From positions 1,249,208 through 1,313,207 of the forward strand of contig WASS01000020.1 in NCBI GenBank assembly GCA_009712635.1: a stretch of 64,000 nt of DNA. Reading direction: 5' to 3'. Below, piece after piece: positions 1 through 5,079 of the stretch. Under the pieces are notes generated by a model, which worked only from the letters and a program-made list of their open reading frames with translations, was not told where the DNA came from and did not search any database. The stretch is from Hungatella sp. Its GTDB lineage: Bacteria > Bacillota > Clostridia > Lachnospirales > Lachnospiraceae. Within the stretch, counting starts at the first letter, position 1. Each line of letters starts with the position of its first letter. The position numbers and the translations under genes were made by a program.

Positions 1-99
1 AGTCACTGCCGAATCAATAATATTATCAACGAGAGCTCCCATTGCTAATACTTTTTGCTTCACTTCAGTTATCTTCTGTGTAAAATGTTCTCTAACCAA
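1..99 (-). CDS. phoU: PhoU, phosphate signalling protein (5' end only)
   Basis: This is the first 33 codons of a gene that runs off the left edge. The translation opens with a TTG start, then VREHFTQKITEV and MGALVDNIIDSA, which fits the N-terminal helix of PhoU. The start is chosen because AAGGAG lies about 10 bases upstream. It sits 16 bases after pstB2 and is the last visible gene of the pst operon. PhoU proteins restrain Pst uptake and PhoR-type kinase signalling when phosphate is plentiful. The call rests partly on position, since most of the protein is outside the window. Confidence 0.85.
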   Translation of the reverse strand, partial: MVREHFTQKITEVKQKVLAMGALVDNIIDSAVT

Positions 100-115: not shown

Positions 116-877
116 TTAGCCGAATCTACCGGTGAGGTAGTCGTTAGTTCTCTTATCCTTAGGAAATGAAAAAACTTCCTGGGTGTAACCTTGTTCTATT
201 AAATCTCCCATCAGCATAAACGCTACCCGGTCTGCAATACGTCCCGCCTGCTGAACCGTGTGTGGAGCTATAACAATCGTGTACTGCTCTTTCAGCTGTA
301 CTAAAGATTCTTCAATTTTGGCTGTTGATATAGGGTCAAGAGCCGAACATGGACGGTCAAGTAAAATTACCTCTGGTTCAAGTGCCAGCACTCTGGCAAT
401 GCACAGGCGCTGCTGCTGACCGCCGGATAATCTGGCTGCAGGCGTATCCAGTCTGTCTTTGACATCATCCCACAGAGCCGACATCCGAAGTGACGTTTCC
501 ACTTTTTCTTCCAGATCTGTCTTTGACTTCATTCCTCCCATACGGGGTCCCAAAACCACATTGTCAAAAATGGACATAGGCAGCGGTGTTGGTACATCAA
601 AGACCATACCTACTCTGCGGCGCAGTTCTGTTACATTAACGTTAGTATCAAAGATATTCTTCCCGTCTAACAGTATCTCACCCTCCTGACGGGCTCCTGC
701 TGTTAAATCACTGAGACGGTTCAATGTGCGAAGCAGTGTGGTAATACCACTGCCTGCCGGGCCAAAAACACCCAGAATCCGGTTTTCGGGTATTTCTAAG
801 TTTAATTCTTTAATGACCTGTTTTTGTTCAAAAAAGAAATTTAATCCCTTTATATCTATTTTTGCTTTCTGCGTCAT
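116..877 (-). CDS. pstB: Degenerate PstB-type ATPase (PstB2), predicted catalytically silent partner
   Basis: This is a full-length (253 aa) phosphate ABC transporter ATPase, but key catalytic positions have changed. Walker A reads GPAGSGITT, with Ile45 in place of the lysine. The Q-loop glutamine is Asp94. Walker B reads VILLDRP, with Arg175 in place of the catalytic glutamate. The signature LSGGQ (150-154), D-loop SALDP and H-loop His206 are kept, and the C-terminus still ends in the YLTGRFG pattern shared with PstB1. The frame is open and the fold motifs remain, so this looks like a conserved pseudo-ATPase rather than a decaying gene. It lies between pstA (10-base gap) and phoU. Inference: it pairs with PstB1 (3496-4293), whose defect is complementary. 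An alternative is a regulatory, non-transport subunit. Confidence 0.9.
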   Translation of the reverse strand: MTQKAKIDIKGLNFFFEQKQVIKELNLEIPENRILGVFGPAGSGITTLLRTLNRLSDLTAGARQEGEILLDGKNIFDTNVNVTELRRRVGMVFDVPTPLPMSIFDNVVLGPRMGGMKSKTDLEEKVETSLRMSALWDDVKDRLDTPAARLSGGQQQRLCIARVLALEPEVILLDRPCSALDPISTAKIEESLVQLKEQYTIVIAPHTVQQAGRIADRVAFMLMGDLIEQGYTQEVFSFPKDKRTNDYLTGRFG

Positions 878-887
878 TTTTCACCTC

Positions 888-1724
888 TTAACGGCCCTTC
901 GCTATAAATCGATTGACCAGCATATTAAATCCTACATTAAGCAGAAGAATCAGAATAATGAGTAGCGCTGCTGTTCCGTAAGCGTTATCCATGGATATTC
1001 CCTCTCTCGCCAATATATAAAAATGTACTGCCATCGTCCGGGTCGGGGAAAACAGTGATTCAGGCATACGAAGTGCGGAACCAGCCGTTAATATGACAGC
1101 TGCTGTTTCAGCTACACATCTGCCGATACTTAATATCACACCATTTACAATACCAGGAAGGGCTGATGGAAGTACTGTCCTGGTTATTGTCTGTAATTTC
1201 GTCAATCCCAGAGAGAAGCCAACCTCCCTGTATAGCTGGGGAACCGTACGGATCGACTCTTCCGATGTACGTATAATCGTTGGCAGAATCATAATCGCCA
1301 TAGTTAATCCACCTGACAATATTGACCAGCCCATATTTAAGTATATCACAAAAAAGATAAATCCGAAAAGTCCATACACAATAGAAGGAATCCCCGCCAG
1401 AGATTCGGCGCTGAAACGGATAATCCGGGTGATTCTTCCCTCTCTTGTGTATTCCGTAAGATAAATTGCTGTTCCAATTCCAAATGGTGTTGCCACAATT
1501 ACTGCCACCGCAGTTACAACCAGTGTCCCTACAATGGAGGAGGAAATACCGCCGGAACGGCCCATGTCCCTGGGAATATCCGTCAAAAATTCCCAGCTGA
1601 GCATCGGGATGCCCTTTACCAGAATATATGCAATGATGGAAAAAAGAATGGCAATAACAAAAAGAGCTGCCGCCCAAATGGTAAACTTGGCTATCTTTTG
1701 AGAAGTGTTTGCATTCATTTTCAT
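888..1724 (-). CDS. pstA: Phosphate ABC transporter permease PstA
   Basis: This is an integral-membrane permease of 278 aa that forms the phosphate channel together with PstC. It has about six hydrophobic segments and the inner-membrane loop typical of binding-protein-dependent permeases near EVGFSLGLTKLQTI, the site that contacts the ATPase. The start is placed at ATG 1724 because AGAGGTGAGG lies just upstream. An in-frame GTG/ATG further upstream would overlap pstC. It begins 7 bases after pstC ends and is followed 10 bases later by pstB2, so translation is probably coupled along the operon. Confidence 0.95.
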   Translation of the reverse strand: MKMNANTSQKIAKFTIWAAALFVIAILFSIIAYILVKGIPMLSWEFLTDIPRDMGRSGGISSSIVGTLVVTAVAVIVATPFGIGTAIYLTEYTREGRITRIIRFSAESLAGIPSIVYGLFGFIFFVIYLNMGWSILSGGLTMAIMILPTIIRTSEESIRTVPQLYREVGFSLGLTKLQTITRTVLPSALPGIVNGVILSIGRCVAETAAVILTAGSALRMPESLFSPTRTMAVHFYILAREGISMDNAYGTAALLIILILLLNVGFNMLVNRFIAKGR

Positions 1725-1731
1725 AGTGACC

Positions 1732-2577
1732 TCACCTCTTTCGTGTAATGTACTGGGCAGTGGCATTTAAAATCATGATAATAACAAATAATACAATACC
1801 CGTGGCAAAAAGCGCCTGCTGATGTTCACCGGATGCATATCCCATTTCAATACCGATATTGGTAGTCAGTGTTCTGACTGGGTCAAGAACGGAATGGGGA
1901 AGCGCAACCGCATTGCCCAGAACCATAATTACAGCCATTGTTTCACCAATTGCTCTACCTAAACCTAAAATAACAGCAGCTACTATACCAGACTTGGCAG
2001 CCGGCAGCAACAGGGAACGAATTGTCTGCCATTGTGTCAGTCCCAGTGCAAGTGCGCCGTCCTTATAGTGGCGCGGCAGTGCAAGAAGGGATACTTCGGT
2101 AATGCTTATTATGGTAGGCAAAATCATAATGCCCAGAATGATGGAACCTGCCAGTATGCTAAGGCCCGGTCCTCCCAGGTATTTACGGATCGCAGGCACA
2201 ACGAATAAAACTCCCCAGAATCCATATACAACGGAAGGTATGGCGGCCAGTAACTGAATAGCAGGCCGGAATATATTCCGAAGCTTTACAGGCGCAAACT
2301 CAGCCAAAAATATACTGCAGCATATGGCGATGGGTACTCCTACGATAGCTGCTCCTATGGTAACCGATACTGATCCGACAATCATTGGGAAAATACCGTA
2401 ATAGCCCTGGCTGGGTGCCCATTTCATCCCAAAAACAAAGTCGATAATGCCTACCTTGGCAATGATGGGCATACCTTTTATAAATATAAAAACAGTGATG
2501 AGCGCCAATACCGATAAAGTCGAAAGAGCGATTAAGAGAAACACACGCTCCGTTAATTTTTCCTTAAAACTTTTCAT
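1732..2577 (-). CDS. pstC: Phosphate ABC transporter permease PstC
   Basis: This is the second channel subunit of the Pst importer (281 aa). It has an N-terminal helix at about residues 12-35, roughly six membrane spans in all, and a permease loop around KDGALALGLTQWQTI. PstC pairs with PstA and receives phosphate from the lipoprotein PstS. Its ATG overlaps the pstS stop by four bases (ATGA), a sign of translational coupling. Length and motifs are ordinary for the family. Confidence 0.95.
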   Translation of the reverse strand: MKSFKEKLTERVFLLIALSTLSVLALITVFIFIKGMPIIAKVGIIDFVFGMKWAPSQGYYGIFPMIVGSVSVTIGAAIVGVPIAICCSIFLAEFAPVKLRNIFRPAIQLLAAIPSVVYGFWGVLFVVPAIRKYLGGPGLSILAGSIILGIMILPTIISITEVSLLALPRHYKDGALALGLTQWQTIRSLLLPAAKSGIVAAVILGLGRAIGETMAVIMVLGNAVALPHSVLDPVRTLTTNIGIEMGYASGEHQQALFATGIVLFVIIMILNATAQYITRKR

Positions 2578-3422
2578 TTTGCTGCCCCCTCTGCTGACGG
2601 GATAAGTCCCTCTTTGCTAAGTAAATTCTGCCCCTCCAAAGAAAGGGTATAATCAATAAAACTCTTTTGTATTCCTGTTGGCTCACCATCGGTAACAAAC
2701 AAAAACTGTCTGGACAGTTTATAGCTGTTATTCATGATATTTTCCCGTGTGGCTTCAACGCCGTCTAAGCTAACCGCTTTTACTTCTTTGGAAACCAGCC
2801 CTAACGATATAAATCCTATGGCATTTGGGTCATCTTCAACCAATTGGCGTACTGCTCCATTGGAGTCCTGAACTATGGCTTTGGGAGTTATCTCTTTCTT
2901 CCCCATAAGCAGTTCAGTAAAAGCACTTCGTGTACCGGACCCTTCTTCTCTTGCAATAATATTAATCTTGGCTTTTGTGCCTCCCACCTGACTCCAGTCC
3001 GTAATTTCAGCCGCATATATATCACGGATCTGGTCAGAGGTAAGGTTTTTTACAGGGTTTTCTGGATTTACAATAATTGCCAGACCATCCTTTGCAATTT
3101 CTACGCTCCAAAGGTCCTTCTCACCCTCTTCCAGAGAACGGGAAGACATACCAATATCAGCACTATGAGTCTGGGTTGCCGTTATACCAGCGGAGGAGCC
3201 TCCTCCCTGAATATCAATCACAGCCTCCGGATCTTTGGCCATAAAAGCTTCTGCCAAAATCTCAGCATATGGCTGTACCGAAGTTGATCCTGCAACGATG
3301 GTGTCTGACTCCGTCCCCTGGGTGCAGCCAGACAGTAAGCCCATAGAAAGGGTCAGTATTACTGCACAGGCAGATATTTTTATTCTTTTTAATAATTTGC
3401 TTGTATTAATCCTTTTTTTCAT
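2574..3422 (-). CDS. pstS: Phosphate-binding lipoprotein PstS
   Basis: This is the extracellular phosphate-binding protein of the Pst importer, anchored as a lipoprotein. The N-terminus has basic residues, a hydrophobic stretch and a lipobox LLSGC. Phosphate-binding segments follow: AGSTSVQPYAE, GGGSSAGI and EEGSGTRSAF. Start choice is uncertain: ATG 3422 is used, but an in-frame TTG at 3431 is also open, and neither has a strong ribosome site nearby (the closest GGAGG is about 35 bases upstream). It lies downstream of pstB1, an unusual place, since pstS more often leads the operon. Confidence 0.93.
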   Translation of the reverse strand: MKKRINTSKLLKRIKISACAVILTLSMGLLSGCTQGTESDTIVAGSTSVQPYAEILAEAFMAKDPEAVIDIQGGGSSAGITATQTHSADIGMSSRSLEEGEKDLWSVEIAKDGLAIIVNPENPVKNLTSDQIRDIYAAEITDWSQVGGTKAKINIIAREEGSGTRSAFTELLMGKKEITPKAIVQDSNGAVRQLVEDDPNAIGFISLGLVSKEVKAVSLDGVEATRENIMNNSYKLSRQFLFVTDGEPTGIQKSFIDYTLSLEGQNLLSKEGLIPSAEGAAK

Positions 3423-3495
3423 ATTTTGCAAAAATCAAACATTTATTTCCAATGCCTGATTTCCTCCATTTCTCTGAATATAGAAAAACCAGTTT

Positions 3496-4293
3496 TCAAC
3501 CAAACCTGCCTGTAATATAATCTTCAGTGCGTTTGTCCTTGGGATTTGCAAAAATCTGTTCTGTAGGAGCATATTCCACCAGGGTTCCTGCTCTGTCCTC
3601 ATCCATCATCATAAACGCAGTCATATGAGACACTCTCGCTGCCTGTTCCATGCTATGAGTCACGATAAGAATTGTATATTTTTTAGCAAGCTCTTCCATT
3701 AATCCCTCAACCTGCATGGTGGATTCCGGATCCAGCGCACTGCATGACTCATCCATTAACAAAACTTCAGGCTCTACAGCCAGTGCACGGGCAATGCAAA
3801 GCCGCTGCTGCTGTCCTGGGGAGAGGTCAAAAGCGGATCCCTTCAGCTTGTCCTTAAGTTCGTCCCATAAAGCCACCTGACTTAAGTAACTCTCCACAAT
3901 CTCATCAAGACGTGCTTTTTGCTTTATCCCATGATGTCTGGGGCCAAAAACCATATTATCATAGACTGACATGGGAAATGGATTCGGCTTCTGGAAAACC
4001 ATGCCCACTCTTTTTTTCAGTGCAACAACATCCATACTTTTATCATAGATTGAAGTATCATCAAGCAAAATTTTTCCTTCTACCCTGACTCCCGGTATCG
4101 GGTCATTCATACGGTTAAACAGACGCAGAAGTGAAGATTTACCGCAGCCTGAAGGACCAATGATTGCTGTAATAGCACATTCCTGAATATCCATGGTAAC
4201 ATTTTTCAGAGCCTGGAAGCTGCCATAAAAAAGGTTTACTGAATCTGTCTTTATCTTGGCTCTCTGCCCAGACTTTAATATAAGATCATCCAT
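3496..4293 (-). CDS. pstB: PstB-type ATPase (PstB1) with a broken signature motif
   Basis: This is the phosphate importer ATPase (265 aa) and first gene of the operon. Walker [10 protein letters not shown] (46-54, Lys52), Q-loop Gln101, Walker B LLMDE (Asp181, Glu182), D-loop and H-loop His213 are intact. The ABC signature reads LSPGQ (157-161): the first glycine of LSGGQ is proline, a change expected to disturb gamma-phosphate contact. In an ABC dimer each ATP site uses Walker motifs from one subunit and the signature from the other. This subunit can therefore supply the good Walker half, while PstB2 (116-877) supplies the good signature. The start has AAAGGAT about nine bases upstream. Confidence 0.93.
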
Positions 4294-4346
4294 ACGTTTA
4301 TCCTTTACTATACTTTGATTTTACAACTTCTTTACATCCGCTATTA

Positions 4347-4617: not shown

Positions 4618-5079
4618 TTAATTCGTTGAATTAATTACCCTGTATTCCTGCAGGTAATATTGATTTCTAAAATGTCTATAGTAATATTCTTTCATTAATC
4701 CCAAATCCTTTTTGTACTTCTCAACCTCCATGGCGCATACTCTCATCCATAGCAGCCTGTCTATGGATACAATTAAAACATTTCCTTCATCAATCGCATT
4801 CTTTAGAAAAAAATCATAGTCAATCAGTACAATGCTTCGCCAAATCTCAAATTTATTTATGATAAATCCCAAATCACCATACAGATCTTTTTTGTTATCC
4901 GGATACTGTTTTGAAAGTACATGATAATCATCTTGTGAAATGATTAAATCAATATCCCTGCCTGCCTTACGCATTCCATAATATTCCATAGCCATGCCGC
5001 CTATTATGATTGGTTTTTTTATAAAAGACAAAGGAATCTCATTCAGACCTTCATTTACATCTATAATCACTTGATTCAT
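4618..5079 (-). CDS. Nucleotidyltransferase-fold protein
   Basis: This 153-aa protein has the pattern GGMAMEYYGMRKAGRDIDL at about residues 27-45. A GG helix followed by an RDxDL acidic pair is the usual metal-binding core of minimal nucleotidyltransferases, such as MNT or AbiEii-like proteins. The substrate is unknown. No HEPN or AbiEi partner is next to it, so a toxin-antitoxin role is not supported. It sits 27 bases after the VOC gene on the same strand and may share its transcript. Confidence 0.6.
   Translation of the reverse strand: MNQVIIDVNEGLNEIPLSFIKKPIIIGGMAMEYYGMRKAGRDIDLIISQDDYHVLSKQYPDNKKDLYGDLGFIINKFEIWRSIVLIDYDFFLKNAIDEGNVLIVSIDRLLWMRVCAMEVEKYKKDLGLMKEYYYRHFRNQYYLQEYRVINSTN

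Follow-up and report, generated by a model that had tools for sequence, protein, structure and literature searches.

Two PstB ATPases with complementary motif losses in a PstSCAB-type operon of Hungatella sp.: a predicted asymmetric heterodimer

The pst operon and the motifs of its two ATPases

We analyzed a stretch of 64,000 nucleotides from Hungatella sp. (assembly GCA_009712635.1, contig WASS01000020.1, positions 1,249,208 to 1,313,207; hereafter the window), whose first 4.3 kb contain a pst operon with two genes for the ATP-binding cassette (ABC) ATPase PstB. Five minus-strand open reading frames (ORFs) are arranged in the order pstB1-pstS-pstC-pstA-pstB2, and phoU follows 16 bases downstream of pstB2, within the operon. 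Both pstB genes have the coordinates given in the initial annotation of this DNA, and both are on the minus strand. PstB1 (265 amino acid residues) and PstB2 (253 amino acid residues) are encoded by separate ORFs, which flank the permease and binding-protein genes at opposite ends. All five Pst proteins exceed the NCBIfam curated cut-offs, PstB2 only narrowly (its ortholog in genome G087, with 330.2 bits, is under the TIGR00972 cut-off of 343.2). The genes are the following (G and L numbers denote genomes and loci):

116–877, minus strand: pstB2, ABC ATPase, Walker side dead, signature intact (TIGR00972, 346.1 bits versus a cut-off of 343.2)
888–1766, minus strand: pstA, permease (TIGR00974, 281.5 bits versus 193.45)
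1732–2577, minus strand: pstC, permease (TIGR02138, 297.5 bits versus 196.45)
2574–3431, minus strand: pstS, phosphate-binding protein (TIGR02136, 231.2 bits versus 206.6)
3496–4293, minus strand: pstB1, ABC ATPase, Walker side intact, signature broken (TIGR00972, 380.9 bits versus 343.2)
1–99, minus strand: start (TTG) of phoU, which runs past the left window edge (full frame at 4654–5307 of L010; TIGR02135, 219.8 bits versus 130.25)

The motif residues were read as codons from the window DNA, their positions being computed from the ORF coordinates:

743–745, minus strand: codon 45 of PstB2, Ile (ATT) in place of the Walker A Lys
596–598, minus strand: codon 94 of PstB2, Asp (GAT) in place of the Q-loop Gln
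416–430, minus strand: signature LSGGQ of PstB2, intact (residues 150–154)
353–355, minus strand: codon 175 of PstB2, Arg (CGT) in place of the catalytic Glu
3811–3825, minus strand: signature LSPGQ of PstB1, broken (residues 157–161)
4132–4158, minus strand: intact Walker motif of PstB1 (ORF and motif reading)

The three replacements in PstB2 and its intact LSGGQ, as described initially, were confirmed codon by codon, and PstB2 also has Asp174 (GAC) and the H-loop His206 (CAC). PstB1 keeps Lys52, Gln101, Asp181, Glu182 and His213 next to its broken LSPGQ, again as described, with the small correction that its catalytic Glu is followed by Ser (DESCSALDP), where the canonical PstB of the same genome has Pro. 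Since two or more base changes separate every deviant codon from its consensus residue, a single miscalled base explains none of them. The AlphaFold2 model of PstB2 is confident (mean predicted local distance difference test score of 93.9) and the nearest solved fold is that of Escherichia coli PstB (template modelling score 0.91–0.94, 49% identity); PstB2 is therefore, as modelled, an intact nucleotide-binding domain (NBD) lacking a working Walker side.

Each ATP site of an ABC dimer is formed by the Walker side of one subunit and the signature of the other (PMC7756269). Judged by motif sequence, neither a PstB1 nor a PstB2 homodimer would hold a consensus ATP site, a statement of the initial annotation that holds; as in heterodimeric ABC transporters, two different NBDs with complementary motif losses are encoded in this operon, and not a PstB forming a homodimer with two consensus sites.

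Co-occurrence of the two forms and sorting of their defects

A scan of one genome per species, in which the best 80 of 314 matches were kept, gave 26 loci (L041–L066) with 65–99% identity to PstB2, followed by a gap to PstBs of at most 57% identity. Together with the window, G087, G336, G860, G1459 and G1572, these make 32 Clostridial-type loci, and the carriers of the Walker-less form are Lacrimispora, Anaerobacterium, Clostridial metagenome-assembled genomes (MAGs) and one MAG labelled Treponema. In all 32 loci the Walker A Lys of PstB2 is replaced by Ile, Val, Thr, Leu or Ala, the Q-loop Gln by Asp or Glu and the catalytic Glu by Arg, and LSGGQ is kept. The signature of the partner PstB is broken in the 28 loci in which it is readable, in 15 spellings (LSPGQ, LAPGQ, LPAGA, LTAGE, LGAGE, LAVEQ and LAIGR among them); it is never LSGGQ, its first glycine is always replaced and the adjacent Walker motifs are intact. 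The four loci without a readable partner are L043, where the contig end cuts pstB1, L049/G927 and G1572, where the contig starts inside the operon and no PstB1 match was found elsewhere in the genome, and G860. Both genes are present in 22 of the 26 loci L041–L066 (one with a cut pstB1), in the order pstB1-S-C-A-B2.

The initial annotation had proposed to check whether the two degenerate forms go together, and they do so in the 28 readable Clostridial-type loci as well as within Lacrimispora, where a PstB2 match is present in 14 of 25 genomes and a PstB1 match in 13 of those 14 (pstB1 of the fourteenth is cut by a contig end), versus none of the 11 genomes without PstB2. In this genus co-occurrence was judged by score and place, residue-by-residue reading covering only part of the further genomes. 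Carriers were found in at least 2 of 299 genomes in the family draw, at least 4 of 246 in the order draw, at least 3 of 391 in the class draw and at least 4 of 299 in the phylum draw (in the last three the best 20 loci each were read, so that the counts are lower bounds). Horizontal spread of the asymmetric operon is suggested, because its carriers are scattered, in differently named lineages. In L064, from a record named Anaerobacterium chartisolvens, the operon has 72–94% protein identity to that of the window (87–94% barring pstS and phoU), for which a recent transfer and a misnamed record are candidate readings.

The genome of the window also has a second operon, pstSCAB-phoU, on another contig (L009, 2300–6628), whose PstB has all motifs intact. 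With this canonical operon present, the changes in PstB1 and PstB2 might be taken for decay, or sequencing error, in a redundant copy. We consider this vanishingly improbable: the frames are open, the ratio of nonsynonymous to synonymous substitution rates (dN/dS) is about 0.05, and the same residue types recur in 32 loci, from isolates and MAGs alike, in the window through codons at least two changes from consensus. Private decay of a redundant operon is ruled out by the relatives that share the pattern, and this explanation is refuted in substance. Between the window and its relatives dN/dS is 0.043–0.060 for PstB2 (5 pairs) and 0.036–0.075 for PstB1 (5 pairs), the canonical PstB giving 0.014 and 0.044 in the two computable pairs; both PstB1 and PstB2 are under strong purifying selection. 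The single high value, for pstA of the asymmetric operon in L045, stems from a split frame in that record, a complete Lacrimispora chromosome (G924, CP070896), in which the canonical pstB (C1:3327669–3328408) is likewise split into two overlapping frames, by frameshifts or long-read errors.

We sorted 355 distinct PstB core sequences by their motifs (partial sequences and matches below 200 bits were dropped, and "canonical" is defined by motifs), which gave 208 canonical, 35 Lys-less, 43 Gln-less with Lys and 69 with a broken signature only; because similarity to PstB2 and to the PstB family decided which sequences entered the set, these proportions are not natural frequencies. All 35 Lys-less sequences have Asp or Glu at the Q-loop position and Arg at that of the catalytic Glu, and their LSGGQ and His are unaltered; this conservation excludes chance. 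The 69 broken-signature sequences keep Lys and Gln by the order of sorting, and every one of them also keeps Glu and His. Defects on both sides occur in one of 147 deviant sequences, an outlying paralog (G1207), and no sequence among the 355 has lost the catalytic Glu while retaining Lys or Gln. Immediately ahead of the H-loop His, 35/35 Lys-less and 42/43 Gln-less sequences have Pro, and all others have Thr.

The Chloroflexota form and the ancestry of PstB2

Locus L089 contains a relative of PstB2 with Ala at the Q-loop position, Lys and Glu being kept, and a neighboring PstB with the signature LALRQ. In 150 genomes of its class there are 54 matches to the L089 PstB2 at an E value of 1e-95 or better (22 of them left unread), and in all 30 loci read the Q-loop Gln is lost, and Lys, Glu and LSGGQ or ISGGQ are kept. 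We read 42 Chloroflexota genomes with this Gln-less form, and 38 of the 41 covered by the partner count (G1093 was left out) also hold a PstB whose signature is broken (in most cases LSLGQ) and whose Walker motifs are intact. The partner adjoins the Gln-less PstB in some (L210 and L216–L222, for example), is divergent from the operon in others, and lies on another contig in G1020, G1022, G1066 and G1261. G1270 and G1033 have the Clostridial gene order B1-S-C-A-B2, and the PstB2 of G1270 has a Q-loop Asp, like Clostridial PstB2, and retains both Lys and Glu; the signature of its partner is LALGQ.

In a tree of 124 sequences, with the motif columns removed, Clostridial and Chloroflexota PstB2 group together (support 100/98); a tree of 174 sequences recovers the same group (99/85) and places G1270 beside the Clostridial form (99/76), the bootstrap values of both trees not having settled. 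The two broken-signature groups are separate in the tree, Clostridial PstB1 standing beside the LSGGQ PstB of a Dehalococcoidales genome (L102; 100/99); that genome yielded no further PstB. Clostridia and Chloroflexota share the PstB2 lineage; in the latter Gln is gone and Lys and Glu remain, and this Gln-less form looks like an earlier stage of the decay. From the branchings of the trees, the likely order of losses in PstB2 is the Q-loop Gln, then its change to an acidic residue, then Lys and Glu; these two were probably lost later, on the branch to the Clostridial form.

Several side observations come from Chloroflexota. The PstB2 of G1056 (L236, 5881–6654, and L208) is also without the H-loop His (VPQS), the sole case in the 43 distinct Gln-less sequences. 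In L235, L350, L351 and L355 the broken-signature pstB stands between the asymmetric operon and an adjacent canonical pstB-phoU cluster and is transcribed divergently. An outlying PstB-like paralog with LSIGQ or LSTGQ and Leu-Ala before the Q-loop position (L389, L390, L392 and L393, from G1292, G1074, G966 and G1207) adjoins a PstA-like permease; in the tree of 174 sequences a long branch (99/93) carries these paralogs next to the PstB2 group.

The predicted heterodimer, its precedents and its substrate

The complementary losses, the LSGGQ kept in a Walker-dead PstB2 and the carriers whose genomes gave no PstB match beyond this pair (see below) argue for a heterodimer with one working site. 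We consider it likely that the operon encodes a PstSCAB-type importer with an obligate asymmetric PstB1/PstB2 heterodimer, a proposal of the initial annotation that is well supported by the comparison of loci. PstB1 and PstB2 would pair under the permeases PstC and PstA; one site, composed of the Walker A/B motifs, Q- and H-loops of PstB1 and the LSGGQ of PstB2, would bind and hydrolyze ATP, and the other, composed of the dead Walker side of PstB2 and the broken signature of PstB1, would not hydrolyze it and would probably hold the dimer partly closed. The motifs, their conservation and co-occurrence, the operon, the selection and the phylogeny of PstB2 are observed directly; the physical pairing, the site that turns over, the substrate and the direction of the changes are what we infer from them.

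Alternatively, PstB1 may act alone, forming a homodimer in spite of its odd signature, with PstB2 as a pseudo-ATPase of regulatory or signaling function, for instance with PhoU. Consistent with this, pstB2 adjoins phoU in the window, 20 of the 26 loci L041–L066 have a phoU-like frame after pstB2 (L051 has one between pstB1 and pstS), other clusters contain PstBs in which the first glycine of the signature is changed (LSRGQ, LSIGQ), and the roles of PstB1 and PstB2 in Enterococcus faecalis are non-equivalent (PMC12096839). We nevertheless regard it as unlikely, since LSGGQ, needless in a regulator without a Walker partner, is kept in 35 of 35 distinct PstB2 sequences, and the signature of PstB1 is broken in every readable carrier, whereas its near relative, the lone PstB found in the Dehalococcoidales genome, keeps LSGGQ.

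Several observations weigh against an obligate pairing of PstB1 with PstB2. In most carriers a canonical PstB is present as well, and either subunit could pair with it (24 of the 25 Lacrimispora genomes have a match in the canonical score range), and G860 (96% complete) has PstB2 and a canonical PstB with no PstB1 found, its contig ending about 100 bases after pstB2. Pairing of PstB1 or PstB2 with the canonical PstB of the second operon is, even so, very improbable in our judgment, as both forms are encoded in one operon with its own pstA and pstC, and in six of the 25 Clostridial-type genomes searched (of the 32) no PstB match beyond the pair was found at an E value of 1e-83. The completeness of these six is 96% for G336, 89% for G936/G504, 77% for G934/G309, 73% for G938/G530 and unstated for G928 and for G932, so that the lack of another PstB is firm in one only. 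G979, G1397 and G1292 hold the Gln-less form with LSGGQ partners only (G1292 also has the distant LSIGQ paralog), and L360, a PstB of G979 that falls within the broken-signature group of the tree, has LSGGQ; loss of the Q-loop Gln therefore needs no broken partner. Conversely, PstBs with a changed first glycine in other clusters (LSRGQ in G939; LSIGQ in G1292, G1074 and G966) mean that a broken signature need not always imply pairing with PstB2. Finally, an approximately unbiased test on the 124-row tree did not reject a single PstB1 clade for both phyla (p-AU 0.28), and we therefore do not claim that the signature was lost twice, by convergence.

Two candidate cases were set aside. G924 (strain ASCUSBR21) had appeared to have the asymmetric Pst only, and a laxer search found the two overlapping pieces of its canonical pstB; it is therefore not among the six genomes. 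The LSRGQ PstB of the MAG G939 (L349, 6654–9287), a third PstB beside a frame of about 600 residues matching PstA, was considered as a homodimer tolerating a broken signature, a reading weakened by the PstB1 and PstB2 that this genome also holds.

Returning to the PstB1/PstB2 heterodimer, its degenerate site might no longer need nucleotide: where a hydrophobic or small residue stands for the Walker A Lys, an internal salt bridge between the acidic Q-loop residue and Arg (Asp94 and Arg175 in the PstB2 of the window) would replace the bound ATP-Mg. We offer this tentatively, as a rather doubtful extension, because the acidic residue is strictly paired with Arg at the Glu position (35/35). If true, one ATP would be spent per phosphate, a saving for energy-poor anaerobes, and Chloroflexota would preserve the steps from a symmetric ATPase to a half-ATPase. 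Work on degenerate ATP sites has mostly concerned exporters; in the present importer family a natural series seems to be visible, from symmetric PstB through Q-loop loss with Lys and Glu kept to loss of the whole Walker side, with the partner signature mostly lost. The order and the consequence of each loss are therefore testable in one family, and one may ask whether a half-dead importer spends one ATP per substrate. Where both proteins are annotated as plain PstB, it goes unnoticed that one of them is probably no catalyst by itself.

The principle of complementary, half-dead sites is already known, from exporters, Pdr5 and fused importers. We found no report of a degenerate PstB among the titles and abstracts listed by our searches of the open PMC literature, subscription papers being outside this scope. 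TAP1/TAP2 and TM287/288 likewise have one consensus and one degenerate composite site, but they are exporters. The initial annotation had described such a division of labor as known in exporters, which is correct, but it is not confined to them: RbsA and NupO of Bacillus subtilis, in which the second Walker A is without Lys and a signature deviates, are, like the asymmetric Pst, importers with complementary halves (PMC11466899). In Pdr5, which represents the fungal PDR exporters, the Walker A Lys is replaced by Cys, the Walker B Glu by Asn, and the partner signature is LNVEQ; as in PstB1/PstB2 nearly all motifs of the deviant site are lost, but Pdr5 is a fused eukaryotic exporter and, unlike PstB2, lacks the H-loop His as well (PMC7756269). 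All human degenerate sites have a changed signature, with replacement of Glu by Asp second in frequency, and the excerpt of that source has no description of a joint loss of Lys, Gln and Glu as in PstB2 (PMC7756269). Dpp, with two NBDs, can hydrolyze at both (PMC12136057).

RbsA-type transporters have both NBDs in one polypeptide, whereas the asymmetric Pst has two ORFs; they also differ in permease and substrate class, and their Lys is replaced by Arg, where PstB2 has a hydrophobic residue, with Asp or Glu and Arg elsewhere. The genome of the window has five stretches taken for fused two-NBD proteins (L399–L403), putatively of the RbsA type. Three of them (L400, L402 and L403) are complementary, the first half having the Walker A Lys and an odd signature and the second a Walker A Arg and LSGGN. 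L401 retains Lys in its second Walker A, and for L399 the second Walker A was unmatched.

That Pst normally uses a PstB homodimer, as stated initially, holds for E. coli PstSCAB, with one PstB sequence and two chains per entry (PDB 9k3s, 9k3x and 9k3y), but Pst systems with two PstBs are known in E. faecalis and B. subtilis (PMC12096839, PMC11466899). The tandem PstB1/PstB2 of E. faecalis are two PstBs in one Pst, but with all four motifs intact in both (PMC12096839), and PstBA and PstBB of B. subtilis were modelled in one complex (PMC11466899). These tandem Bacillus and Enterococcus pairs are covered through the papers, since no genome gave more than one PstB match (49 of 100) in our search of the class.

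Phosphate is the likely substrate of the asymmetric Pst, because PstS matches its family and phoU is attached. The best solved relative of PstS is 4gd5, a phosphate-binding protein (E value of 6e-61), and PstS aligns with solved phosphate-binding proteins via GSTS, SSR and RE-GSGTR stretches. The identity of PstS between the window and distant carriers (55–66%) is below that of PstC, and the canonical operon already covers phosphate, so that the heterodimer might be real and serve another substrate. We find this quite improbable, given a PstS above the family cut-off, its alignment with solved phosphate-binding proteins, the attached phoU and, as weak evidence, a PHO-box-like repeat upstream of the operon:

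4320–4336, plus strand: TTTACA-N5-TTTACA direct repeat, candidate PHO-box-like element, 26 bases from the pstB1 start codon

Six matches to this pattern with at most one mismatch occur in the 64 kb versus 3.68 expected, and 14 of 100 shuffles reach six, so that their number is not above chance and placing alone weakly favors the repeats: that at 4320–4336 is the sole mismatch-free one of the six, and a mismatch-free copy also lies upstream of the canonical pst operon (L009, 2191–2207). A TTTTAC repeat common to the Lacrimispora relatives lies further upstream; together with the TTTACA repeats of both pst operons it provides candidate, statistically weak, PhoP sites.

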